Shown: positions 35,501 to 50,018 of the stretch, one piece after another
Layout of the letters: every line of letters starts with the position of its first letter
Numbering within the stretch: the stretch's first letter is position 1
DNA from: Calothrix sp. NIES-4105
Lineage (GTDB): Bacteria; Cyanobacteriota; Cyanobacteriia; Cyanobacteriales; Nostocaceae
Length of the DNA: 64,000 bases
Reading direction: 5' to 3'
Assembly (NCBI RefSeq): GCF_002368415.1
Contig: NZ_AP018290.1
Location: 10,593,717-10,657,716, forward strand
Translations under genes and position numbers: made by a program
Notes under the pieces: model-generated
What the model was told of the DNA's origin: nothing
The model's input: the letters and a program-made list of their open reading frames with translations, nothing else
Databases searched by the model: none

Positions 35501-36385
35501 TCACAATTTCATTAACAACTCTTGTGTTAACTGCACAAAAGATTTAGAACCAGGAGACTGAGGATTGTTTAAAACCACAGGCATAAAACTATCAACAGCT
35601 TTTGCGACATTCATATCCATCGGTACTTGGTTCTTAAACACCTTGCTATCGCCAAAGTCTTGATGTACGCGGTTCATCACTTGCTTGTAATACCTGCCAC
35701 TGAGCAAATTACCACTGTACATGGTAAACACAATACCCAGCATTTTAATATCAATCTTCGCTTCCTGCTCGTGACTATCTTTGAGTTGGGCAATGCGTCT
35801 CTCTAAAAGTTGAATTCCAACTATAGATAATGGTTCTGGTTTTGCAGGTAATATATAGAAATTACTCGTTGCCAGCGCGCTACGTGTTAGTAAAGTATAA
35901 CCGGGAGCGCAATCGCAAATAATAAAATCGTACTCATTACGTACTGGTTCTATTATTTTACTTAGCAGGACTCGCTCAAAACGATTCCAAATTGTCTCAA
36001 AATCTTTCTCACCCAAAGTTACCGCTTGTTGGTGCAAAAGTTCCGACACTACAAACTCATCGTACAAGTCAATGTCACCAGGTATCATGTCCAAACCCTG
36101 TACATTACAAACCTGCTTTTGAATTACATCATGAATTGTAAGACTCGGCGCCTCACTAGGACTCATAATTTGGTCGATTAAATATCGAAACGTTTTGCCA
36201 TGTTTACGACGGTTTGCAAACTCAACAGGTGACATTAAACTAAGAGTAGCGCTGATTTGCGTATCTAAATCAATAACTAACACCCGTTTACCGTGATTTT
36301 TCGCCAAACAAGTAGCCATATTAACAGTGAGGGTTGTTTTGCCCACACCACCCTTCATATTAGCAGTCGCAATTACATATCCCAT
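35501..36385 (-). CDS. ParA-family ATPase
   Basis: The 294-residue protein starts MGYVIATANMKGGVGKTTLT, the deviant Walker A (KGGVGKT) of ParA/Soj/MinD ATPases. It also has VLVIDLDTQISATLSL, the YDFIICDCAPGYTLLTR switch, and ILPAKPEPLSIVGIQLLERR. ParA proteins form nucleotide-dependent dimers on DNA to segregate plasmids, chromosomes or cargo. No parB or centromere-like repeat is adjacent, so this is an orphan, possibly left from a plasmid or integrative element. Confidence 0.85.
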   Translation of the reverse strand: MGYVIATANMKGGVGKTTLTVNMATCLAKNHGKRVLVIDLDTQISATLSLMSPVEFANRRKHGKTFRYLIDQIMSPSEAPSLTIHDVIQKQVCNVQGLDMIPGDIDLYDEFVVSELLHQQAVTLGEKDFETIWNRFERVLLSKIIEPVRNEYDFIICDCAPGYTLLTRSALATSNFYILPAKPEPLSIVGIQLLERRIAQLKDSHEQEAKIDIKMLGIVFTMYSGNLLSGRYYKQVMNRVHQDFGDSKVFKNQVPMDMNVAKAVDSFMPVVLNNPQSPGSKSFVQLTQELLMKL

Positions 36386-36887: not shown

Positions 36888-37211
36888 TTAATGACCTGAC
36901 ACAGCGCCAATTGGTTGTATGCTCAAGCGATAGCCAAGATTATGAAGAACAAGGCTGATGGTTCGCAGTTCAGGGTTCCCCTCTGAAGACAAAGCCCGAT
37001 AGAGGTTTTGACGATTCAAACCTGTTTTTTCCGCAAAGTGGGTCATCCCGAACCGTGCCTCCACTACATTCCGCAGTGCTTCCAGAAAAAACGCCAACTC
37101 GCCATCCTGCTCGTATTCTTCAAGAGCAACCTCCAAGTACGCCTTTGCCATTTCCGGGTTCTGTAGCTGTTCCAACAGCACCTCGTCATGGTTTCTAAGT
37201 TTCTTGCCCAT
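36888..37211 (-). CDS. Addiction-module antidote, HI1420-like HTH protein
   Basis: The 107-residue protein has LRNHDEVLLEQLQNPEMAKA, ALRNVVEARFGMTHFAEKTG, then LNRQNLYRALSSEGNPELRT. This is the XRE-type HTH antidote family paired with RelE/HigB-like toxins. It overlaps the end of its toxin frame by 17 bases, the classic toxin-first TA operon. It neutralises the toxin and represses the operon. The antidote is intact while the toxin is broken. Confidence 0.85.
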   Translation of the reverse strand: MGKKLRNHDEVLLEQLQNPEMAKAYLEVALEEYEQDGELAFFLEALRNVVEARFGMTHFAEKTGLNRQNLYRALSSEGNPELRTISLVLHNLGYRLSIQPIGAVSGH

Positions 37212-37538
37212 CTTGTTCCTCCTGGTAAGCTTGCCAATATTTTTTAGCTTTTTCTATATCATTGTCCTGGCTATCCTTATCCCCACCACATAAGAGAATT
37301 ACCACATCATCAAGGGCTTCCCCAATGTAAACGCGCTAACCACTGCAAAAAAAAATCTGAGTTCCAGAACGCCCTCACCAACAGACTTACAATCCCCATA
37401 GTTACCCTGTTTAACACGCTCCACCCGTCGGATTATCCGGGCACGAATTGTATAGTCCTTCAAACTTTCTAACCATTCTGTGTACGGCTCTTTGTCGTCT
37501 TCTGTTGCATAAACTTTCAGAACTTTTGGACGAATCAT
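37195..37538 (-). pseudogene. RelE/HigB-like toxin with frameshift and stop
   Basis: From ATG 37538 the frame reads VYATEDDKEPYTEWLESLKD, RRVERVKQGNYGDCKSVGEG and LELRFFF. It loses similarity after a run of nine A/T bases (about 37347-37355). The shifted frame restores the family C-terminus, RVYIGEALDDVVILLCGGDK and KAKKYWQAYQ, ending at 37195. It contains a TAG (37336-37338) where a tyrosine is expected (SG*RVYIGE). Two independent lesions make this a dead toxin. Confidence 0.8.
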
Positions 37539-38410: not shown

Positions 38411-41041
38411 TTAGTTGTTAAGTTGTATATTTGTCGCGAATAAGCTTTGTAAACGGTGTAAATTGGCACCTGTTTGGTAAAGCAAATCACCTTTCCCTAA
38501 TAAGTAAGCTGCGGAATTTTGTTTCCCACCAAGAATAATCATTGAGTCAGCTTCACTTGCGGTTTTCAAAGCTACTCTTCCTGGTAAATTTGAACGGATA
38601 ATTGGAGTCACAATACCTGCTTCGGGACGTTGAGTGGCAATAATAAGATGAATTCCAGCAGCTCTGGCCATTGCTCCCAAACGTTTGATGCTTTGTTCTA
38701 AGGCTTTGCGAAGTTCTTTTTCAGCCATAAAATCAGCGTACTCGTCAAAAATACACACTATACGCGGTAATGCTGTTAGAGAACGTTGGTTATAGCTACT
38801 TAAATCATTACATCCTGTTTTTTCAAACAGCTTGTAACGTTTTTCCATCTCCCCAACTAAACTTTCCATTAATTCGATAGCGGTTTCACCATCTTTAACA
38901 ACTGGAGAGTACAACGACTTCATCCCCTCAAACTCAGGAAAAGTCACACGTTTAGGGTCAACAAGGACTATTTTTAAATTTTGTGGAGAATGACGAACAA
39001 GGAGACTAAGAAGAAGCGCGCGTAAAAATTCACTCTTCCCACTGCCAGTAGTACCACCAATTAAAAAGTGACATGTGTTAGGGTCTGATAAATCAGCTTC
39101 TAGCAATTTTCCTTCTAAATTTACCCCGATTGCAATTTTTACTGCTGCATCTGCTAGTAACATTTGCGACTTGACATAATCTTCAAATTTAGCAACTTGT
39201 CTCTGTGTGCGGGGTAAATCAATACTGACATAACCAGCTTGAGGAGCAATTAAAGGTGGACTTGCTAAACCCATTTGCACTTGCAAATCCGCAGATAACT
39301 TCAGCAATGCGTTAACTTTGACACCAAGATGAGGTTTGAGCTTCACCCGAATAAAAGCAGGCGCCACAGCCACACCTTGAAAATCTACACCAATACCAAA
39401 AGATTCCAAAGTAGTAACTAAATTTTCTCCAATAACATTAGCATTACTTAATTGCTCATCCTTTATTGTGGAATCTTCTGTAGAATGTTTTGTGGAACGG
39501 GCATCCTTAGAGTCTTTATACTCAACATCCTGCCCATCCCCTAAATTCTGAACATCTTGATTTTGATTATCACTAACAAAATAACTTTGACACTTTTGCT
39601 GTTGCGGACAAATTTTACACAAATGCGAATGAATAGTAGCAGGAGGTGGATTAGGTGATGGTGGCGCCCAAGTCAACCATTGCCGCATCTGTTGTAACTT
39701 ATAGGGAATTAACTGATGCACAGTATTCTCTAACTGTTCCCAAGGATAGTGATATTCTTTAAACTCCGGCAAAACACAGTATACCGCCGAATCAACAGGC
39801 GCCTTTTTACGAAGCCACATCATATAGCTATAAACAGCTACTTGTGCTAATTGCGCTGATGGGTCAACAGGTTGATAAGTTTTAAATTCAATCACACATA
39901 AGCGTTTGGTTTCAAACTTGAAAACTAAGCAATCAAATCTGCCTGCAACCCTTAGCTCTGAATTATCAGGCAAATTAAAATAATGTTCTAACTTACGGTC
40001 TTCAATGACAAAAGTTTCCCGAATCACACTTTCGGCATTACAATAGCGTCGATTAATAACGAGTAGCTCTGCAAAGCGCCTGATTAATCCTTGTAACCCT
40101 TGCCAAACTTTAAACAGTGGTTGGGCAAAATTTGAATCTTTATTTATTGACTTTTGTAAATAAGAATAAAATATTTTATTGTAATAAAGCTGTTGTATAT
40201 TATAAGCTACTTCCTCTACAACTAACTCTGATGCAGCAGATTTAAATATATCAGTATATGGTTTATTAATTAATAGATTAATAAGCTCATCAGCCAAATC
40301 ATGAAAAATCTGACCAATCCCAACAACATTCTCTGGTGGTAAAAATAAAGTATTACCTCCAAAACGCTCTTTCAAATAAAATAAGCGAGGACATTCAAAG
40401 GCTGTTCGTAACTTAGTGGGTGTTAAAGACAAAGATTGTGTCTCTGCTGAGTGCCTTGAATTTGGCGCCATATCAAAAATAGGATTTACTATATTAGACT
40501 TAGAGAATTTTAATAAAGCTTGATGTACAGCAGCTAAATAAACCGTATCCATCGCAGCATATTGTAACTGCTTCTGAGTGAGTGGGCGCCTACCCCAATC
40601 ACTTCCTTGCTCTTCTTTATCTACATCTGAAAACTTACATAACTCTGTTGCTAAAGTTTTCAACTGTAAATTAGAAACCATTAAAACATTTTTACTAATC
40701 TTCTGAGCTATTTTGAGAGTACAAGTAATATTCTGAGCCGACTTACCACCAAGATACTTTAAATCAAAACTAGCATTATGAAAGACCTTTTCGATTTGAG
40801 AATTAACCATTATTTGCTGAATAAAGTAAGCAGCTAAATCATGTTTATCCAACACATCCAAAATATAGACAGACTGACTTGCCGTATCAGTATTAACTAA
40901 AACTTGTATTAGAGAAAGCCTAGGATAATTAGTACTCCAGTCAGCAATTTCTGTGTCTAACCATAGTGTTTTTAGCAAACTTAATTCATCAATTTGCGAT
41001 CTAATCTCATTGGAAGTTATCAAATATTGCATAATTTTCAC
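38411..41041 (-). CDS. DEDDy exonuclease + Cas4-like Fe-S nuclease + FtsK/HerA translocase fusion
   Basis: The 876-residue protein has three parts. Residues 1-180 form an RNase D-like 3'-5' exonuclease with a complete DEDDy set: D29/E31 (LWLDTEIADW), D93 (HNASFDLKYL), Y161/D165 (YAAMDTVYL). Residues 205-490 form a PD-(D/E)XK nuclease of Cas4/AddB type: H247, D370 (GRFD), E385 and K387 (IEFKTY), with four cysteines C217, C475, C478 and C484 suited to a 4Fe-4S cluster. Residues 540-876 form an FtsK/HerA motor: Walker A GGTTGSGKS (662-670), Walker B IVCIFDE (761-767), and AGIHLIIATQRPEAG. It has no membrane or gamma domain. It is the last gene of a three-gene operon. A dispersed repeat is embedded at about residues 500-525. 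It probably degrades DNA while translocating. Confidence 0.85.
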   Translation of the reverse strand: MKIMQYLITSNEIRSQIDELSLLKTLWLDTEIADWSTNYPRLSLIQVLVNTDTASQSVYILDVLDKHDLAAYFIQQIMVNSQIEKVFHNASFDLKYLGGKSAQNITCTLKIAQKISKNVLMVSNLQLKTLATELCKFSDVDKEEQGSDWGRRPLTQKQLQYAAMDTVYLAAVHQALLKFSKSNIVNPIFDMAPNSRHSAETQSLSLTPTKLRTAFECPRLFYLKERFGGNTLFLPPENVVGIGQIFHDLADELINLLINKPYTDIFKSAASELVVEEVAYNIQQLYYNKIFYSYLQKSINKDSNFAQPLFKVWQGLQGLIRRFAELLVINRRYCNAESVIRETFVIEDRKLEHYFNLPDNSELRVAGRFDCLVFKFETKRLCVIEFKTYQPVDPSAQLAQVAVYSYMMWLRKKAPVDSAVYCVLPEFKEYHYPWEQLENTVHQLIPYKLQQMRQWLTWAPPSPNPPPATIHSHLCKICPQQQKCQSYFVSDNQNQDVQNLGDGQDVEYKDSKDARSTKHSTEDSTIKDEQLSNANVIGENLVTTLESFGIGVDFQGVAVAPAFIRVKLKPHLGVKVNALLKLSADLQVQMGLASPPLIAPQAGYVSIDLPRTQRQVAKFEDYVKSQMLLADAAVKIAIGVNLEGKLLEADLSDPNTCHFLIGGTTGSGKSEFLRALLLSLLVRHSPQNLKIVLVDPKRVTFPEFEGMKSLYSPVVKDGETAIELMESLVGEMEKRYKLFEKTGCNDLSSYNQRSLTALPRIVCIFDEYADFMAEKELRKALEQSIKRLGAMARAAGIHLIIATQRPEAGIVTPIIRSNLPGRVALKTASEADSMIILGGKQNSAAYLLGKGDLLYQTGANLHRLQSLFATNIQLNN
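39480..39540. repeat. GGCATCC repeat embedded in the fusion gene
   Basis: AAGGATGCCCGTTCCACAAA on the minus strand (39515 to 39490) matches the intergenic repeat at 18548-18567 almost exactly. It stays in frame and encodes KDARSTKHS in the linker between the nuclease and motor domains. Confidence 0.6.
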
Positions 41042-41056
41042 ATATAAAATAATATA

Positions 41057-43129
41057 TTATTTAGTTACTAAACAAATCAGTTGTTCTTCGGGTTTTGCTT
41101 TAGGATCAATGATTTGGACTTTTTGCCCTTGACAAAGCTTTTGAATTAACTTTTGAATATCTGATTTTTCTAAAAATGAAAATTGAGTACTTGTTTCTCT
41201 AATTAATGCTGGCAATCCCATGTAACCTTGTGTTGTTACTAAATTAAATATATAATCTTCTACTGGCTGTAAATCGACTTCATCCGCTATTATTGTATCA
41301 GATGGCTTACATACTCCTAAATCTTGTAGCAAAAGACAATTATTCAAAACTTTAGTATCGCGAACTAAAGCTTCTAACTCTTGTAAACTAATCTCTTTAT
41401 TAGCTACTACTAATTCCTGTGCTAGCACGGAATTTACAAGATTATGGTAAGTTACTAAGTAGTGTACAGAAGACAATTTCGGTGCAATATGACGATGTTG
41501 TGTACCTTTAAAAATCTGACTATACAGTTTATATCCTAAATTTTTGGATTTTCCTAAAGTGCTAATTCTAATTAAATAGAGAGTTTGGCAAAGGTTTTGC
41601 TGAATTACTTTTTGACAAGCATTCATCACACTATAAAAACTAGTCATATTTAATTCTTCTGCCCAAACTATCCCTATTCGCTCACGTTTTTCATCAGGTT
41701 GTTGATAACTTAAAGAGTGAGTCGCGTAGGCACCGCTAAGTAGCTTAGGTTGAATTGCTTGTATTTGTAACGCAGTTAGTACTTCTTCCAATATCCGAAT
41801 TAAATCGGATGACGGTAATAAAGAAATTTTACTAAAATTACTCTGAACTTTTTGATATTCTCGCTGCCAAATTAATTTAAATTCAGCTTCAATTACTGGG
41901 GGAGGTGGTGGGGGAGGTGGTGGTACTGGTTTTGAACCGTCTATCCATTTAGGTGAAGGTGGTTGTTTATCTCTAAATAACCATTCTTTATATTCCCGAA
42001 ACAGAAGTTTTCCAATCATCAATATAGCGCGCGGTGCTGCTCTACGGCTAAGAAATGTTTTTTCTAAAACCTGTCCAAGAAAAGGGTAAATAGGGGAATT
42101 GGGTTTAGGAGTGGCTTGACGATGTAAAGGATATAGTCGAGAAGCTAAGAGAGCTTCACCTTCTTCTAGCGTGATGCGTTTAAGCGAAATTCTGATGCTA
42201 GCTCTATCTAGATCAGCAGTTTGAATTCGTTTAGAATTATCATACCAGGTACTTGTTCTAATACTGATAATAATTAAAAAACCTTTCCACTTACCGTTAA
42301 TAATACCAGAGTTGACGTTAAATAAAGCTTGCAGGTCAATCGACCCATCGGGTAATCGAGAAATATTATCTAGCTGATCAAAACATAATACTATAGGTTG
42401 AGTTTTGCCTGAAATATTGCTAAAGTTACTCAGAATCCCTCGTGCTTTTTCTTCGTCATCTATAGATTGTTTAACTTTTAATTTTTGCAGACTCTCTTCA
42501 TCGAGATCGTCGCCTTTTAACCATTCACAAGCGAGAGAGTACAGTTCAGGATTCGTTAGGCTATAAAGAACGCCAAAAAATTCATTAGCATTGTAAATTC
42601 CCTTTGTTCCAATAGTCTTTTTGAGAATATCGATAAATAATTGACGGTCGGTGATAGCATCTGTTTTTCCAAATAAATTTCTGATTTTATCAATAAAGCT
42701 TTGCTGCTCGGTTTTCAAGCCTTGTCTAATACTGGATAAGCAACTTTTAAGCCAAATTATTAATTGTGAATCTACTTGTCCTTCTGGAGTATTCACTAAA
42801 CTATCAATAGTATGACGTAAAATATGCCGCCAGATATGGTCACTTTGAGCAAATGGTTCAACGTATACAAAAAAAGCTTGATTGTTTAACTCTTGTTTTA
42901 CACGACCCAGAAAGTGAGTTTTGCCCGAACCTGTGTCTCCATAAAGAATTAAACTACGGGTTTGATGATCTTGAGCAGTCTGCCCCAAGATATCTTTAAT
43001 TTGTATTAGTTGCTTTTGATGAATAGACTCAACACTAGGAAATGCCTCATGCTCTTCCCAAAAATTACCTGCTGTTGAGTTATCAAATGGATTCAGCGAT
43101 TTTTTAATAACTTCGTCAAGAGTTGCCAT
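41057..43129 (-). CDS. AAA ATPase with poly-proline linker
   Basis: The 690-residue protein has a P-loop near its N-terminus (LILYGDTGSGKTHFLGRVKQ, residues 60-80) and a Walker B at 246-252 (PIVLCFDQLD). This gives an Orc/STAND-like AAA+ arrangement followed by a helical lid (RASIRISLKRITLEEGEALL). A run of nine prolines (about residue 400) separates it from a C-terminal alpha/beta domain (GIVWAEELNMTSFYSVMNAC, TLYLIRISTLGKS) and a terminal winged-helix-like end. The C-terminal domain is not recognised. It lies 15 bases upstream of the nuclease-translocase gene and is probably a regulator, loader or sensor for it. The gene has no GGCGCC site. Confidence 0.75.
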   Translation of the reverse strand: MATLDEVIKKSLNPFDNSTAGNFWEEHEAFPSVESIHQKQLIQIKDILGQTAQDHQTRSLILYGDTGSGKTHFLGRVKQELNNQAFFVYVEPFAQSDHIWRHILRHTIDSLVNTPEGQVDSQLIIWLKSCLSSIRQGLKTEQQSFIDKIRNLFGKTDAITDRQLFIDILKKTIGTKGIYNANEFFGVLYSLTNPELYSLACEWLKGDDLDEESLQKLKVKQSIDDEEKARGILSNFSNISGKTQPIVLCFDQLDNISRLPDGSIDLQALFNVNSGIINGKWKGFLIIISIRTSTWYDNSKRIQTADLDRASIRISLKRITLEEGEALLASRLYPLHRQATPKPNSPIYPFLGQVLEKTFLSRRAAPRAILMIGKLLFREYKEWLFRDKQPPSPKWIDGSKPVPPPPPPPPPVIEAEFKLIWQREYQKVQSNFSKISLLPSSDLIRILEEVLTALQIQAIQPKLLSGAYATHSLSYQQPDEKRERIGIVWAEELNMTSFYSVMNACQKVIQQNLCQTLYLIRISTLGKSKNLGYKLYSQIFKGTQHRHIAPKLSSVHYLVTYHNLVNSVLAQELVVANKEISLQELEALVRDTKVLNNCLLLQDLGVCKPSDTIIADEVDLQPVEDYIFNLVTTQGYMGLPALIRETSTQFSFLEKSDIQKLIQKLCQGQKVQIIDPKAKPEEQLICLVTK

Positions 43130-43186
43130 GATAATGTGTTTGTTATCTTAAAACTTAATCTACTTGAAAATTAGGTATAAATACCT

Positions 43187-44050
43187 TTAAATCAGTCTAA
43201 TAAAGAATAAGCAACCACTACTGATTTGAGGAATTCCCATATCTACTTGCTCTGGAGTATAATTTACTGGGTCTGCAAGCGTGCTTAATTCAATTTGGTC
43301 TGTTTCTTCCAAACGATATAGAGCTTTATCTAATTCATCGCGCGTTAGTGGTGGCTGTAACTTTTGCCGCAGGTGGAAGATTGGCAAATAATTGTCAGTA
43401 CCAAGGTCTTTGTCTAATTTCCGGATAGTTTCTAGAATTTCTTCATCGCTAATATTGGCGATTTCGGTAATTTTTTCAACCGACGACTCTATTTTAGATG
43501 TTGGTGCTGATATTGGTGTAGATACTTGTTCGGATGTACTACGTAAAGCTTTTCGCAAAAAACGCAGGTAATTACTGAGCAAGTCTAAGCTAATATTAGC
43601 GGCGCCTTTGGGAACATAATCATCCCGCAAATACGCAAAACCGCGTTCAGTTAGCCATATCTCGCCTTTTGCCTTCTTGATTTTCTCTTCAGGTTCAATC
43701 AAACCCCTATCACTCAGGGTTTTTAAAATCTCATCCCGTTCGCTGGCTTTTGGCGAAGTGATTTTTCCAGGACTGATTTTCCCAGAAGCTTTACTAATCT
43801 TTTCCAATACTCGACGTTCTTTCTCTGTTATCGGTACTTCTTTTGGGTCAAGGTTGAGTAAAGCTTGACCCGGAGGTAAAATCTTGACTGTAGCAATTTC
43901 ACGGGTATAGTTTATAAGTTCTTGTTGACCTAAAGAAAAGCAAATTTTATCTTTACCCTTAAAAGAGTTAAATATACTGGCGCCATAGCTAGAACGATAA
44001 TCGCTACATTCTAGTAACTTAAGGAGAAACTTTAGTTCATTAATATCCAT
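43187..44050 (-). CDS. Winged-helix protein, first gene of the nuclease-translocase operon
   Basis: The 287-residue protein begins MDINELKFLLKLLECSDYRS. It contains at least two winged-helix-like units: KASERDEILKTLSDRGLIEP with EIWLTERGFAYLRDD, and LPIFHLRQKLQPPLTRDELD with KALYRLEETDQIEL. No enzymatic motif is visible. It lies 57 bases before the AAA gene on the same strand. It may bind DNA as the recognition or regulatory subunit of the three-gene system. The family was not recognised. Confidence 0.65.
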   Translation of the reverse strand: MDINELKFLLKLLECSDYRSSYGASIFNSFKGKDKICFSLGQQELINYTREIATVKILPPGQALLNLDPKEVPITEKERRVLEKISKASGKISPGKITSPKASERDEILKTLSDRGLIEPEEKIKKAKGEIWLTERGFAYLRDDYVPKGAANISLDLLSNYLRFLRKALRSTSEQVSTPISAPTSKIESSVEKITEIANISDEEILETIRKLDKDLGTDNYLPIFHLRQKLQPPLTRDELDKALYRLEETDQIELSTLADPVNYTPEQVDMGIPQISSGCLFFIRLI

Positions 44051-44495: not shown

Positions 44496-45851
44496 ATGTT
44501 ACTAGGTGAACATCCCAACTTAAGCCAGTTACAATCATTTACTATTAATGGCTTATTTGGTTTTAAGGATATAAAAATTCCTTTTGATAAAGAAGCAGTA
44601 ATTTTAATTGCAGAAAATGGGGCGGGTAAAACTACAATTCTGAATACTTTATACTACTCAATTAGTTGCAAATTTTCTAAATTAAGTACTATTGCATTTG
44701 ATTCAGTTATTCTAGAATTTGCATCAGGAGTTAGTGTTGAAATTAAAAAAAGCGATTTAAATCTATTTTTAAACCACGAAGACTCCGAGGTAATTGCTTT
44801 ACTTAGCCAGTATTTACCCAATCGAGAAACAGAATTATTTCAAAGAGAGCTTGGAAAAAGCTTATTAGATAACTCGTATTGTAGAAGATTATTGAGCATA
44901 ACTAGTAAGTATATTGATAGCTGGATAGAAGCTGAAAATTCTAGACTTGCAATTGATAAAGGAACAGATAGAAAAAGTAAGATTGACAAAATTAAAGCAA
45001 CTATTCAAGAAAACTTAAATGAATCAATTTTATACTTTCCAACTTATAGAAGGATAGAAGAAGACTTAAAAAATTTAGGATACGAGGAAGAAAAGTTTGA
45101 ACGCTTAAGTTTTGGTGAAGGGAAAGGTAAACTTATTCAGTTTGGCATGAATGATGTTATCGATAAATTTGATGAAATTAAAACAACTATAAAAAACTCA
45201 GCATTGAACTTATTTTCAAAAGTTACAGGCGAAATATTAACTCAGTTTGTTGAAGGCATTGAGATTACTCAGGAAATGAGAGATAGCATTCAACCTGATA
45301 CTTTGAATATTGTTTTGAGCCGCGTTGGGGAAAAAAATATATCAAAAAAAGATAGACACAAAATTGAGCGACTTGTAACTACTGGAGAAATAAATTCTCC
45401 TCAACATGACCAATTAGTTTATTTCCTATCCAAGCTAGTTGACTTGTACGAGCAGCAAAAAGAAAAAGATGAATCAATAAATCAGTTCACTAAAATTTGT
45501 AATAAATATTTAAATAAGAAGCGCATTATATACGATGAAGCAAATGTGGATATTTCAATAGTCCTAACGAGCCATAACACACCAATAGATATTAGAAACC
45601 TTTCTTCTGGAGAAAAACAAATTATATCTCTTTTTTATAAAATTTACCTCGAATCTACAGAGGAGTTCATATTATTGTTTGACGAACCTGAGTTATCACT
45701 TTCTATAGAGTGGCAAAAACTTTTGCTTCCCGATATTTTAAAATCGGGTAGATGTAGATTGTTAATAGCAGCTACTCATTCTCCATTCATTTTTGATAAT
45801 GAGCTAGACTTAAATGCTAATGACCTAGATACTTTTGTGCGAGAAAGATAA
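44496..45851 (+). CDS. ariA: AriA-like AAA/ABC ATPase of a PARIS system
   Basis: The 451-residue protein is an SMC/Rad50/ABC-like ATPase. It has FTINGLFGFKDIKIPFDKEA, Walker A ENGAGKTT (40-47), the ABC signature NLSSGEKQIISLFYK, Walker B FILLFDEPELSLS and the H-loop ATHSPFIF. Long helical middle segments are present. Length and partner (DUF4435 immediately downstream) fit AriA of PARIS, the ATPase that holds the AriB toxin and releases it when phage anti-restriction proteins are sensed. The TAA is directly followed by the ariB ATG. The gene looks AT-rich and has no GGCGCC site, suggesting recent arrival. Confidence 0.8.
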   Translation: MLLGEHPNLSQLQSFTINGLFGFKDIKIPFDKEAVILIAENGAGKTTILNTLYYSISCKFSKLSTIAFDSVILEFASGVSVEIKKSDLNLFLNHEDSEVIALLSQYLPNRETELFQRELGKSLLDNSYCRRLLSITSKYIDSWIEAENSRLAIDKGTDRKSKIDKIKATIQENLNESILYFPTYRRIEEDLKNLGYEEEKFERLSFGEGKGKLIQFGMNDVIDKFDEIKTTIKNSALNLFSKVTGEILTQFVEGIEITQEMRDSIQPDTLNIVLSRVGEKNISKKDRHKIERLVTTGEINSPQHDQLVYFLSKLVDLYEQQKEKDESINQFTKICNKYLNKKRIIYDEANVDISIVLTSHNTPIDIRNLSSGEKQIISLFYKIYLESTEEFILLFDEPELSLSIEWQKLLLPDILKSGRCRLLIAATHSPFIFDNELDLNANDLDTFVRER

Positions 45852-46757
45852 ATGTCGGTAGAAAGTTTAAGAGCATCTCGAAACAGAGCAGTTGCCGTAT
45901 TTGTTCAGTTTTCCAGACTTTATAAGGAGTTTGAATCTGCATTATATTGCTTTTTTGAAGGTGACGATAGTAAATACTATGGAATTAGAATCAAAAATAT
46001 TATAAGACCCGAAAAATATATTGATATTAGCTGTAATGGAAAGGAAGGAGTTTTAGGTATTCACAGGATGCTCTCAGCACGTAAATATTATTCGAGTGTC
46101 AAAGCAGCTTACTTTATTGATAGAGATTTTGATAAATCTATTTATGAAACAGGTTTAACTCAAATATACGAAACTCCATGTTACTCTGTAGAAAATTTTT
46201 ATACCTCAGTTGATTGCTTTTCGGAAATTTTAAAAGCTGAATTTAAGCTAACCGAGTTAGATGACAATTTTACTCGGTCTATTTCGCTTTACATGAAATT
46301 GCAAGATGAATTTCATAATGCGGTTGAGTCGCTTAACGTTTGGATAGCTTGCCAGAGAGATAATAAGAGCGTACTAAATATTTCTGACTTAAGCGTATTA
46401 CGTTTCATCGATATTGACCTTGATAAAATAACAATCAAATACACAATTAGTGATTTATATACAATGTACCCGAAGACATGTTGTATTTCTCAAGATGAAT
46501 TAGACGTAAAACGAAGTGAGTTACAAGCTAGCAATCGTCAAACAAGCTTTAGAGGTAAGTTTGAGATTGAATTTTTATTTTCTTTTCTTCAAAAGCTTAT
46601 AAGTGAAGCTAACCAAGGTAATTATCCATATTTTACTAAAAAAATTAAAGTTTTTCTATCTCTATCGAAAAAGAATATGATTTCTGATTTATCTCAATAC
46701 GCAGATACGCCAGATTCTCTTTACAGCTATCTAGAATCTTTTAAAACTTCTTCTTAA
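45852..46757 (+). CDS. ariB: AriB-like DUF4435 (Toprim) effector of a PARIS system
   Basis: The 301-residue protein has the DUF4435 layout: ALYCFFEGDDSKYYGIRI with E36 and D38, KAAYFIDRDFDKS with D90 and D92, and PCYSVENFYTS with E114. These acidic residues form the Toprim-like metal site. The C-terminal half (about 120-301) is helical. In characterised PARIS systems AriB is a Toprim nuclease that cleaves host tRNA after release from AriA, causing abortive infection. The active-site residues look intact. It begins in the base after the ariA stop. Confidence 0.8.
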   Translation: MSVESLRASRNRAVAVFVQFSRLYKEFESALYCFFEGDDSKYYGIRIKNIIRPEKYIDISCNGKEGVLGIHRMLSARKYYSSVKAAYFIDRDFDKSIYETGLTQIYETPCYSVENFYTSVDCFSEILKAEFKLTELDDNFTRSISLYMKLQDEFHNAVESLNVWIACQRDNKSVLNISDLSVLRFIDIDLDKITIKYTISDLYTMYPKTCCISQDELDVKRSELQASNRQTSFRGKFEIEFLFSFLQKLISEANQGNYPYFTKKIKVFLSLSKKNMISDLSQYADTPDSLYSYLESFKTSS

Positions 46758-47342: not shown

Positions 47343-50018
47343 ATGTTTACCGACATTCAGAACCATTGGGCACAGGAATCTATTCTACAGTTACGCGCGC
47401 TTTCTTTAATTAGTGGTTATCCAGATGGGACATTTCGACCGAATGCGTTTCTGACTCGCGCGGAATTTGCAGCAATTTTGGTTAAAGCTTTTCCAAATGT
47501 ACAACCAATTCGTGGTGCAATTGTTTTTAAGGATGTTTCTAATCGCTTCTGGGGTTATAACGTAATTCTTCAAGCTTACCGAACTGGATTTATGTCAGGT
47601 TATCCAGATGAAACTTTTAAGCCTAATATGTTAATTCCGCGATTACAAGTGTTTTTGGCATTGGTAAGTGGTTTAAAATATACCCCCAGTCAAGTATCAA
47701 CAACATTTTTAGCAAAGTTATATGATGACGCAAACGAAATTCCTAGTTATGCAGTGGGAGCAATAGTTGCGGCAACTGAAAAAAGTCTTGTTGTTAACTA
47801 CCCAAATGTCAAACGTCTCAATCCTAGCCAGAGAATTACTAGGGGGGAAGTTGTGGCAATTATTTGTCAGGCACTAAATATTCCCGGAGTTTCTTCTTCT
47901 TATATACCATTATTACCTCCACAGCTTGCGATTGATCTACTATTTGATGATGCTGATTCTTTTTCTTTTGGAAGGGCAAGGGTAAAAATTGGCGATAAAT
48001 GGGGTTATATAGATAATACAGGCAAGCAAGTAATTCCACCTCAATTTAATGATGCTAATTCTTTTACTGATAGTCAGGCGCAATTAGCTTTAATCAAACA
48101 ACTTAATCTAGTACCCCTCCCTCCAATTTCTGGGGCAATTTCCGAAACGCGCGGAGTTTGGATTACTATAACTGATAGTCAGGTACTCTCGTCGAGGGAA
48201 AACATTGCTACTGCAATGGAATTTCTCGCCCAAACAGGTTTTAATGTCGTTTTTCCCGTAGTTTGGAGTAATGGTTATACGATTTATCCCAGCCAAACTA
48301 TGCGGGAATTTGGTGTAGAAATACATCCGCGTTTTGTAGGTAGAGATCCTCTGGGAGAATTAATTGAGTCGGCGAAACGGTTCGGTATAGCGGTTATTCC
48401 TTGGTTTGAGTATGGTTTTGCTTGTTCCTACGCGCGCAATGGTGGACATATTATCGCGAAAAAGCCTCAATGGGCAGCTCGCAATCTTAGCGGTAATCTA
48501 CTGAGCAAGAATAACTTTGAGTGGATGAATGCCCTCGATACCGAAGTACAAGATTTTTTGCTATCTTTAGTGTTGGAAGTAGTGAAAAAATATAATGTTC
48601 AAGGTATTCAGGGAGATGACCGAATGCCTGCGCTGCCTTCGGAAGGAGGTTATGATGCTTTAACTGTGGAACGCTACACCAAGCAGTTTAACCAAAAACC
48701 CCCGGAGAATCCTAAAGATGCAGCATGGATTCAGTGGCGTGCAGATATTTTGACTAACTTCTTAACTCGCTTCTATCGGGAAATTATCAACGTCAATCCC
48801 AATTTAATAACTTCCTCCTCACCCAGTGTTTTTCCTTGGGGACTCATTGAGTATCTTCAGGATTCCCAAACTTGGACGGATTTGGGATTAGTTGATTTAA
48901 TTCACCCGCAAATTTATTATCGTACTTTTGCTCAATATAAAGATGTACTCGACCGACTTTTAAGCCAACAATTTACACCAGCCCAACAGCCTTTATTGGC
49001 GCCAGGAATTTTGCTTAAAGTCGGTTCTTACCGAATTTCCCCAGAATTATTGTTACAGAAAATACAATACAATCGCGAACGCGGTATCAAAGGAGAAGTA
49101 TTATTTTTCTACGAAGGTCTGCGAGAAAATAACGATGAGTTAGCGAAAGCGTTGCGTAAGAGTGTTTACGCGCAATCAGTCCCTTTTAATACTGCAAGTA
49201 TCAAAGCGCGGGGATTTACGCGCGAGCGCATCGGTGTGAGTTACAGTTATATAGATATTTCCGGAAAAACAGTTAGCCAACCCCAATACGATTGGGTTGA
49301 TTCATATAGCCAAGGGCTAGCGCGCGTGAGAATGGGTTATAAATGGGGCTATATTAATGTATCAGGGCAACTGGTTGGGAAATTGCAATTCGATGCCGCA
49401 GAACCTTTTGTCAAAAGCAATCTTGACCCATCAGCTGTAGCTTTAGCACTAGTAAGAATCGGCAATGAATATAGATATATTAATACATCCGGTGAAGCTA
49501 TCATTCGCGGTAAATATGATGTTGCCACTTCTTTTCAAGAAGGATTGGCAGCAGTGAAAATACTTGATAAATATGGATATATTAACACTAGTGGCGCCAT
49601 TGTAATTCAGCCGCAGTTTGAGGAAGCAAATCTTTTTTCTGAAGGACTTGCTGCAATTAAGCTAAATGGAAGATACGGCTATATTGACACTACAGGCAAA
49701 GTCGTAATTCAACCACAATTTACACAAGTCAAATCATTTTCCCAAGGATTAGCCGCAATTACCAACAGCGATAAATGGGGTTATATAAATGTCAAAGGTG
49801 AAACAGTAATTCCTTTACAGTTCGCCATTGCAGAATCTTTTAGTCAAAATTTGGCAGCAGTAAAAATCGGTAATTTGTGGGGTTATATCAACTTGACAGG
49901 AAAAATTGCAATTAGACCCACCTTTGATGATGCTAAACCCTTCCGCGAAGGATTGGCTTTAATCAAGCAAGGCGCCAAATGGGGATACATCAAAAGTTCT
50001 CCAGAGTTGTTTATATAG
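47343..50018 (+). CDS. SLH - GHL10 - WG-repeat protein
   Basis: The 891-residue protein has three S-layer-homology modules in residues 1-180 (FTDIQNHWAQESILQLRALS, GYPDGTFRPNAFLTRAEFAA). Two WG repeats (DKWGYIDNTGKQVIPPQF) follow. A glycosyl-hydrolase-like GHL10 domain spans about 268-615 (RGVWITITDSQVLSSRENIA, IPWFEYGF, GIQGDDRM). About six more WG repeats run to the end. SLH modules bind peptidoglycan-linked polymer and GHL10 proteins act on surface glycans. No signal peptide is visible: the ATG at 47343 is preceded by an in-frame TGA at 47334 and the protein starts directly with the SLH motif. Confidence 0.82.
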   Translation: MFTDIQNHWAQESILQLRALSLISGYPDGTFRPNAFLTRAEFAAILVKAFPNVQPIRGAIVFKDVSNRFWGYNVILQAYRTGFMSGYPDETFKPNMLIPRLQVFLALVSGLKYTPSQVSTTFLAKLYDDANEIPSYAVGAIVAATEKSLVVNYPNVKRLNPSQRITRGEVVAIICQALNIPGVSSSYIPLLPPQLAIDLLFDDADSFSFGRARVKIGDKWGYIDNTGKQVIPPQFNDANSFTDSQAQLALIKQLNLVPLPPISGAISETRGVWITITDSQVLSSRENIATAMEFLAQTGFNVVFPVVWSNGYTIYPSQTMREFGVEIHPRFVGRDPLGELIESAKRFGIAVIPWFEYGFACSYARNGGHIIAKKPQWAARNLSGNLLSKNNFEWMNALDTEVQDFLLSLVLEVVKKYNVQGIQGDDRMPALPSEGGYDALTVERYTKQFNQKPPENPKDAAWIQWRADILTNFLTRFYREIINVNPNLITSSSPSVFPWGLIEYLQDSQTWTDLGLVDLIHPQIYYRTFAQYKDVLDRLLSQQFTPAQQPLLAPGILLKVGSYRISPELLLQKIQYNRERGIKGEVLFFYEGLRENNDELAKALRKSVYAQSVPFNTASIKARGFTRERIGVSYSYIDISGKTVSQPQYDWVDSYSQGLARVRMGYKWGYINVSGQLVGKLQFDAAEPFVKSNLDPSAVALALVRIGNEYRYINTSGEAIIRGKYDVATSFQEGLAAVKILDKYGYINTSGAIVIQPQFEEANLFSEGLAAIKLNGRYGYIDTTGKVVIQPQFTQVKSFSQGLAAITNSDKWGYINVKGETVIPLQFAIAESFSQNLAAVKIGNLWGYINLTGKIAIRPTFDDAKPFREGLALIKQGAKWGYIKSSPELFI

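Follow-up and report, generated by a model that had tools for sequence, protein, structure and literature searches.

The operon and its encoded proteins

The stretch of DNA analysed here, the window, comprises 64,000 nucleotides (nt) of Calothrix sp. NIES-4105, whose genome consists of 12.0 Mb in 8 contigs. Three open reading frames (ORFs), all on the (-) strand and separated by gaps of 57 and 15 nt, were found to span positions 38411-44050. They encode a winged helix-turn-helix (wHTH) protein, an AAA+ protein and a fusion of an exonuclease, a second nuclease and an FtsK-type motor. The genes and the domains of the fusion protein are as follows (lengths in amino acids, aa):

43187..44050, (-) strand: wHTH gene, 287 aa (AlphaFold2 model, Foldseek)
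41057..43129, (-) strand: AAA+ gene, 690 aa (AlphaFold2 model, Foldseek, alignment)
38411..41041, (-) strand: exonuclease-nuclease-FtsK motor fusion gene, 876 aa, GTG start (Pfam, alignment)
40508..41017, (-) strand: DEDDy (RNase D-like) 3'-5' exonuclease domain, residues 9-178 (Pfam, conserved residues)
39587..40429, (-) strand: PD-(D/E)XK nuclease with C-x(n)-C-x2-C-x5-C cysteines, residues 205-485 (Pfam, alignment)
39212..39457, (-) strand: FtsK-alpha domain, residues 529-610 (Pfam)
38624..39154, (-) strand: FtsK/HerA motor, residues 630-806 (Walker A 662-670, Walker B ~765-767)

Because most homologues of the fusion protein begin their alignment at residue 4, a Met, the true start may lie 9 nt further in than the annotated GTG. 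Pfam placed along the chain, in this order, a DEDDy exonuclease (7.8e-27), PDDEXK_1 (4.5e-13), FtsK_alpha (2.9e-8) and FtsK_SpoIIIE (5.9e-41), an order which bore out the joining of an FtsK-type motor to nucleases in one chain. The conservation of the active sites was read from an alignment of the window's protein with 60 of the 81 fusion-like ORFs (n = 61), from which near-copies and cut ORFs had been removed by hand. In the exonuclease, D93, Y161 and D165 were invariant (61/61), and D29 and E31 were present in 60/61, with one gap. The nuclease residues C217, H247, D370, K387, Q400, Y404, C475, C478 and C484 were all kept in 61/61; E385 was kept in 57/61 and replaced by D in the remaining 4. 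The motor residues K669, S670, D766 and E767 were also found in all 61 sequences. Thus the domain calls of a first-pass annotation of this DNA were confirmed by Pfam, and the catalytic residues that it listed are kept in 57-61 of 61 sequences. The four-cysteine nuclease motifs are presumably of the RecB/AddB/Cas4 'iron-staple' type. The chain ends soon after the motor, leaving no room for an FtsK-gamma domain.

The AlphaFold2 model of the AAA+ protein (pLDDT 89.3, pTM 0.87) exhibited an ATPase core at about residues 38-340, an alpha-beta-beta-beta-alpha-beta stretch resembling a restriction endonuclease (REase) at about 440-520 within a domain reaching to about 570, and a C-terminal wHTH at 621-687. 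The best Foldseek matches of the model were Pyrobaculum (archaeal) Cdc6 (1fnn) and Drosophila ORC, both at 2.3e-4, and TnsC was found at ranks 17 and 47. An alignment was made of the window's protein with 69 of the 80 AAA ORFs (n = 70; near-copies and cut ORFs removed by hand), and at E<=0.05 Pfam reported AAA_22 in 70, AAA_16 in 69 and NACHT in 63 of these members; no sequence family was matched by the C-terminal part. The Walker motifs remain conserved. In the REase-like stretch S472 (70/70), W489 (69/70) and E491 (70/70) were conserved, and no conserved catalytic D or ExK and no lysine at the expected place was seen in the 70 sequences. If the insert has an REase fold, it is predicted to be catalytically dead, since S472 and W489 occupy the expected catalytic places and the lysine is absent.

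The wHTH protein, modelled by AlphaFold2 with homologues (pLDDT 85.6, pTM 0.54), contained three winged-helix-like units at about residues 3-66, 76-144 and 202-286, as judged by the secondary structure of the model, and a disordered linker at 173-196. It matched no Pfam family above the cut-off. Many winged-helix proteins were among the Foldseek matches of the model, none of them at E<=0.001. Its alignment comprised 59 of the 70 wHTH ORFs and the window's, after removal of near-copies and cut ORFs by hand.

Six peptides of P0001 served as patterns for a scan of the genomes of 84,980 species, which gave 154 stretches, 80 of which were analysed. These 80 loci, which we take to be all cyanobacterial as far as their titles were recognised, encode fusion homologues 51-87% identical over all or most of the chain, which argues that the operon is not a chance arrangement. 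The AAA gene was found in 76/80 loci and the wHTH gene in 71/80. Contig ends explain 3 of the 4 loci lacking the AAA gene and 7 of the 9 lacking the wHTH gene, the real exceptions being L078 (neither gene) and L019 (no wHTH gene). The median gap is 29 nt from the AAA to the fusion gene (75 loci) and 54 nt from the wHTH to the AAA gene (69 loci). The three-gene operon proposed in the first-pass annotation is borne out by these ORFs and by their linkage, and the survey of homologue neighbourhoods, one of its suggested checks, found the genes kept together in nearly all loci with sufficient contig.

A form without the DEDDy domain was found in L097-L109, where one plasmid appears as both L097 and L101 and 12 loci are distinct, with the AAA gene beside the nuclease-motor gene in 12/12 and the wHTH gene in 11/12; the wHTH gene is inverted in L102 and absent from L103, and L106 is cut by a contig end. 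In genome G143 the wHTH-AAA pair and the fusion gene lie ~0.95 Mb apart, and both are retained. The AAA gene is split into two ORFs in L100, L104 and L043, with a 332-aa ORF in between in L100. Tandems of the type wHTH-AAA-AAA without an adjoining fusion gene were seen at L174:6098-11358 (G252) and L175:6918-11903 (G022), and a similar AAA pair in G184; G022 and G184 also carry the full operon elsewhere. L110-L115 encode FtsK-like proteins (551-560 aa; motor identity 42-46%) that have different partners, and no AAA or wHTH gene of the operon's families was found near them.

The exonuclease tree grouped 31 fused DEDDy rows together with the short pieces L142 and L149 (85/95, unstarred), and this group was nested within 51 cyanobacterial RNase D-type rows (100/99), its exact sister being unsure. 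Most non-fused RNase D-type rows are separate proteins of about 180-320 aa. In a tree of the PDDEXK-FtsK part the DEDDy-less rows were scattered among the fused rows; the best tree implied 3 changes, of which the starred branches force only one, and the root was weak (64/31). That tree omits L088-L091, L097 and L118-L121 (by hand) and is also without L094, L104 and L106. A host RNase D was probably the source of the DEDDy domain, because the fused rows nest within the cyanobacterial RNase D-type group, and the domain was probably lost at least once, because DEDDy-less rows lie among fused ones. A standalone RNase D-like gene was found less than ~4 kb from the operon in two Laspinema species (L070:13547-14482 and L071:11318-12247).

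Relation to HerA/FtsK capture systems

The first-pass annotation knew of no named system with this architecture. The parts of the operon nevertheless match the 'HerA/FtsK capture systems' coupled to Orc/CDC6 that were predicted by Rakesh, Aravind and Krishnan (NAR 2024; PMC10853773). As described in the parts of that paper seen here, these systems combine an Orc/Cdc6 AAA+ protein bearing a dead REase domain before its C-terminal wHTH, an active REase, and an FtsK protein with FtsK-alpha; a multi-wHTH protein that evolves rapidly is mentioned among the variants, and in some systems the HerA/FtsK component carries a fused 3'->5' exonuclease. The operon has corresponding parts: an AAA+ protein whose best fold matches are Cdc6 and ORC, at low TM-scores, a predicted active REase with nuclease motifs kept in nearly all homologues, a motor with FtsK-alpha by Pfam, a multi-wHTH protein as read from its model, and an exonuclease fused to the motor as judged by Pfam and conserved residues. 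A dead REase domain in the AAA+ protein is suggested by topology only. On architecture, not function, the operon is assigned as a cyanobacterial branch of this class. The strings 'cyanobacteri', 'Cas4', 'RNase D' and 'DEDD' gave no match in the main text of PMC10853773. Within the openly licensed literature the phrase 'HerA/FtsK capture systems' was found in PMC10853773 only, and no experimental study of the class was found there, as judged by listings and the beginnings of abstracts.

A related BREX-linked offshoot, described in other words, is the BREX-Related Capture (BRC) systems (PMC12839542), which according to the part of that source seen here share a HerA/FtsK translocase, an Orc/Cdc6 AAA+ protein and a wHTH-type DNA-binding protein with the operon. 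BRC systems differ in having a PglZ effector, a STAND NTPase and, in a subset, GNAT and TGT, none of which was found in the three window proteins. DndFGH is alike in having an ATPase, a multi-wHTH protein and a chain ending in an REase plus a HerA/FtsK motor, but DndH has ~1700 aa and eight domains, whereas the window chain has 876 aa with a DEDDy domain and a four-cysteine nuclease. Searches of PADLOC and NCBIfam at E<=1, both of which presumably include models for the Dpt/Dnd F, G and H families, matched none of these families to the window's three proteins. HerA-NurA and the HerA-effector defence pairs couple a ring motor of the HerA/FtsK clade to a nuclease on separate chains, whereas the window has one fused chain with FtsK-alpha and with AAA+ and wHTH partners. 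On a Burkholderia glumae plasmid (L178:39-1580) an FtsK-like gene was observed directly after a DndD gene, consistent with HerA/FtsK domains being part of modification systems.

Exchange of the AAA+ gene

The closest fusion protein among the loci fetched is that of Calothrix sp. HK-06 (L008). Between it and the window the fusion proteins are 87% and the wHTH proteins 86% identical, and the AAA proteins only 46%. When the DNA of the two loci was compared in 150-base blocks, identity was 83-92% in the wHTH gene, fell to 37-71% (mostly 51-66%) in the blocks from ~43250 to 41001, and rose again to 81-96% in the fusion gene (69% in its last block) and 88-95% in ParA. The segment so delimited is:

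41001..43250, (-) strand: segment exchanged, covering the AAA gene and perhaps some tens of nt at the end of the wHTH gene (block identity against L008)

Similarly sharp DNA edges were also seen in L027/L025, L028/L035 and L028/L045. Among 54 loci with all three proteins aligned, there were 28 locus pairs with fusion proteins >=80% identical; the AAA protein was lower by >=20 points in 11/28 and the wHTH protein in 0/28. The 11 pairs can be read as at least five lineages (the window, L011, L020 or L021, L027 and L028).

The trees told the same story. The clade of the window, L008 and L009 received 100 in the fusion tree (34 rows) and 90.9, unstarred, in the wHTH tree (35 rows), and that of L028, L035, L045, L039 and L054 received 100 and 99.7. 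Both were rejected by the AAA data (35 AAA rows; AU test, p = 5e-63 and 1e-41), the groups tested having been named after the identities had been seen. The window's AAA protein instead groups with five other AAA proteins, mostly of Scytonemataceae (support 97), at 66-68% identity. The two halves of the AAA protein were also found to be mixed separately (L021/L020, N half 87 and C half 58; L033/L029, 66 and 85; L016/L012, 53 and 75). Because the AAA protein is far less alike in 11 of the 28 close pairs, the edges are sharp and the AAA tree conflicts with the others, these data indicate that the AAA gene is exchanged as a cassette by recombination between otherwise similar operons. Fast divergence under relaxed constraint would agree with the mean pairwise identity of the AAA protein, which at 0.53 is the lowest of the three (0.58 and 0.64 for the other two). 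Such divergence is nevertheless highly improbable as the cause of the differences, given the abrupt boundaries at the ends of the gene, the well-supported grouping with five other AAA proteins, the preserved Walker motifs and the separate mixing of the halves.

HsdS, the specificity subunit, is exchanged as a cassette within the otherwise stable type I restriction operon, and the AAA gene resembles it in this respect, halves included; the likeness is one of analogy only, and no homology between HsdS and the AAA+ protein is claimed. The pattern suggests a subunit under pressure to change its target, and hence a putative target-setting role. A tentative extension would be that the AAA+ protein serves as an exchangeable specificity subunit on a conserved nuclease-motor chassis with a multi-wHTH adaptor, aiming the machine at different invaders in each strain; its cassettes or half-cassettes could then conceivably be swapped by recombination much as those of HsdS are. 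If this were true, the wHTH-AAA-AAA units, and the wHTH-AAA pair separated from its fusion gene, would represent targeting modules that are uncoupled or kept in reserve. The portion of PMC10853773 covered here describes neither the exchange of the AAA gene nor the occupation of one Nostocaceae site by alternative cassettes that is treated below.

Chromosomal site and likely role

The flanks of the operon in the window hold two further features, neither of which is a component:

35501..36385, (-) strand: chromosomal ParA gene, flank of the insertion site
44496..46757, (+) strand: PARIS-like pair (AriA-like and DUF4435 AriB-like), adjoining the operon

Many Nostocaceae carry the operon with glycosyltransferase genes on one side and the chromosomal parA on the other; in six Nostoc and Desmonostoc loci it instead adjoins rplI-like and dnaB-like genes, names which we take from the look of the sequences. 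A ParA copy (>=50% identical) was found downstream of the fusion gene on the same strand in 42/79 loci. ParA was considered as a fourth component and rejected; relatives that lack the operon also have this gene, and in others the two lie far apart. In the window an HI1420-type antitoxin-like gene (36888-37538; Pfam 6.4e-16), with a 79-aa ORF without a Pfam match upstream of it, lies between the operon and ParA; neither is at the corresponding place in L008. Between the PARIS-like pair and the glycosyltransferase genes sits an 891-aa protein (47343-50018) with SLH, GHL10 and nine WG repeat stretches.

The glycosyltransferase-ParA site turns over, since in relatives it is occupied by different nuclease-ATPase cassettes or by an FtsK remnant. 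At this site L125 has an orphan AAA gene together with a ParB_N-like gene and an HSDR_N-ParA fusion, L119 has such a ParB_N-like/HSDR_N-ParA pair and an open 168-aa FtsK remnant, and L127 has a 265-aa protein with an HSDR_N-ParA fusion. In L129 the HSDR_N-ParA pair stands beside a glycosyltransferase gene with further genes before ParA, and in L118 a 214-aa FtsK remnant lies beside ParA, the left flank being outside the view; L126 and L128, whose left flanks were also outside it, were not counted. The two-gene cassette itself, a fusion of an HSDR_N nuclease-like domain with a ParA ATPase plus a ParB_N-like or 265-aa partner, lies beside or in place of the operon (L125:2246-4359, L119:8979-11095, L129:4060-6206, L127:8011-10383), and looks like another nuclease-ATPase conflict system; the HSDR_N domain also occurs in 9 of the contig-scan loci. 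The open C-terminal FtsK pieces of L118, L119 and L120 (168-214 aa, 73-80% identical to the window motor, with the rest of the operon absent) may be either recent scars or kept for a reason.

Taken together, the operon most likely (probability of about 0.6) represents a branch, found in cyanobacteria, of the Orc/Cdc6-coupled HerA/FtsK capture systems and degrades invading DNA, which could stem from phages, plasmids or invaders of another kind. A target on foreign DNA would be bound by the multi-wHTH protein together with the Orc/Cdc6-like AAA+ protein, the latter through its own C-terminal wHTH and its presumably dead REase-like domain; there the AAA+ protein would load a ring of FtsK motors and thereby replace the missing DNA-reading FtsK-gamma domain. 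The motor would then pump duplex DNA past the RecB-type nuclease, which would cut it, and the DEDDy domain would trim the 3' ends.

Several observations weigh against this interpretation. The AAA+ model gave low TM-scores (0.26/0.43 for 1fnn), and Rix7, Cdc48, a plant NLR and the RdrA ring are also among its seven Foldseek matches at E<=0.001. The REase reading of the insert rests on topology, with no REase among the 50 fold matches shown. The operon keeps one constant chromosomal place near ParA in many Nostocaceae, as a housekeeping gene might. There was also little sign of mobility, as the AAA protein had no match in the phage or viral-contig collections and a single match on plasmids. Enrichment in defence islands, which the first-pass annotation had suggested as a check, was not found: at E<=1e-20, 16 PADLOC models were matched by 150 neighbours against 42 by 150 controls, a crude test in which models, many of them redundant, were counted instead of proteins. 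Each of the 16 models was matched by 1-2 of the 150 neighbour proteins, which were one row each from 150 of 264 families; the controls were 150 of 187 ORFs from 20 hand-chosen positions in 12 genomes, several of them carriers. The argument of that annotation from the adjoining PARIS pair likewise fell away, as the window's AriA and AriB gave no tblastn match in loci L008-L133. Finally, the share of DndC is somewhat higher among carriers, as given below, which counts against it because a phosphorothioate link would also produce this.

With such a link the operon would, in the manner of SspFGH or DndFGH, be a restriction arm that recognises self by phosphorothioate (Dnd/Ssp) marks. SspFGH (PMC8092258, seen in part) is a three-gene module, as is the operon, and the best PADLOC match of the motor is the C-terminus of SspH (3.7e-66). 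DndC was over the cut-off in 52/57 genomes of the order with a fusion match and in 67/91 without one, the 57 including remnants and relatedness not being controlled. However, the similarity to SspH is limited to the motor (profile 1367-1737 of 1766), the window chain has 876 aa against ~1766, and no PADLOC match to SspF or SspG was found (sspBCD was not searched). DndC is common in the order regardless of the operon, and no DndC match over the cut-off was found in 15/18 carriers searched outside the order and 5/57 inside it (DndC was searched, not the SspB-D models). The association is weak within the order and amounts to no dependence overall; the phosphorothioate explanation is therefore very unlikely. 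DndC exceeded the curated cut-off in 119/148 genomes of the order, where phosphorothioation genes seem to be very common.

A housekeeping or lineage-specific machine for DNA-end resection or repair in multicellular cyanobacteria, a HerA-NurA analogue at a conserved locus, would fit the vertical-looking position near ParA and glycosyltransferases, and a nuclease, a 3'-5' exonuclease and a double-stranded DNA motor make up a resection toolkit. The neighbours are mostly ordinary genes by Pfam, with Uma2 'putative restriction endonuclease' in 4/150 and DDE_3 in 2/150. The operon is patchy, however. At least 32/242 genomes of the class, read by hand from the listing of a survey that scored at most three candidates per genome, carry it with all three domains (19) or without DEDDy (13, one cut by a contig end). 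In the order 57/148 genomes pass E<=1e-60 for the fusion protein, a count that includes remnants and partial or other matches (G107, G129, G364 and G290 among them). Truncated FtsK leftovers occur in relatives, with pieces in at least 4 further class genomes (G046, G088, G107, G129), and the host genome keeps FtsK-like and RNase D-like genes of its own. Exchange of the AAA gene by recombination would also be unexpected for a repair enzyme. A housekeeping role is thus unlikely, and conflict with invaders is favoured over it because of the cassette exchange, the patchiness and the site turnover; defence and DNA-end processing are both putative roles.

Within conflict, an anti-plasmid or anti-conjugation system in place of an anti-phage one appears somewhat less unlikely than housekeeping, though still doubtful. 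FtsK/HerA motors suit interception during transfer or segregation, and the authors of PMC10853773 propose, in the part seen here, that capture systems catch the DNA of invaders as it is segregated, transferred or packaged. But a conjugative plasmid, pPSE7367.01 of Pseudanabaena PCC 7367, itself carries one operon copy, of the DEDDy-less form, and no direct evidence separates the two roles.

The first-pass annotation regarded the operon as a new translocating nuclease machine for defence or DNA-end processing. The three-gene unit and the motor-nuclease fusion stand, but the newness of its kind does not, as the class had already been predicted from gene content; which part chooses the target was left untried there. 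The operon is a genuine and well-conserved unit that belongs to a published class, and its exchangeable AAA+ subunit is the part worth following. The swap of the AAA gene between similar operons singles out one subunit as a candidate target chooser and provides natural AAA allele pairs (window/L008, L025/L027, L028/L035). A fused DNA machine with three predicted activities is spread through many cyanobacteria, turning over at a chromosomal site outside any recognisable defence island.

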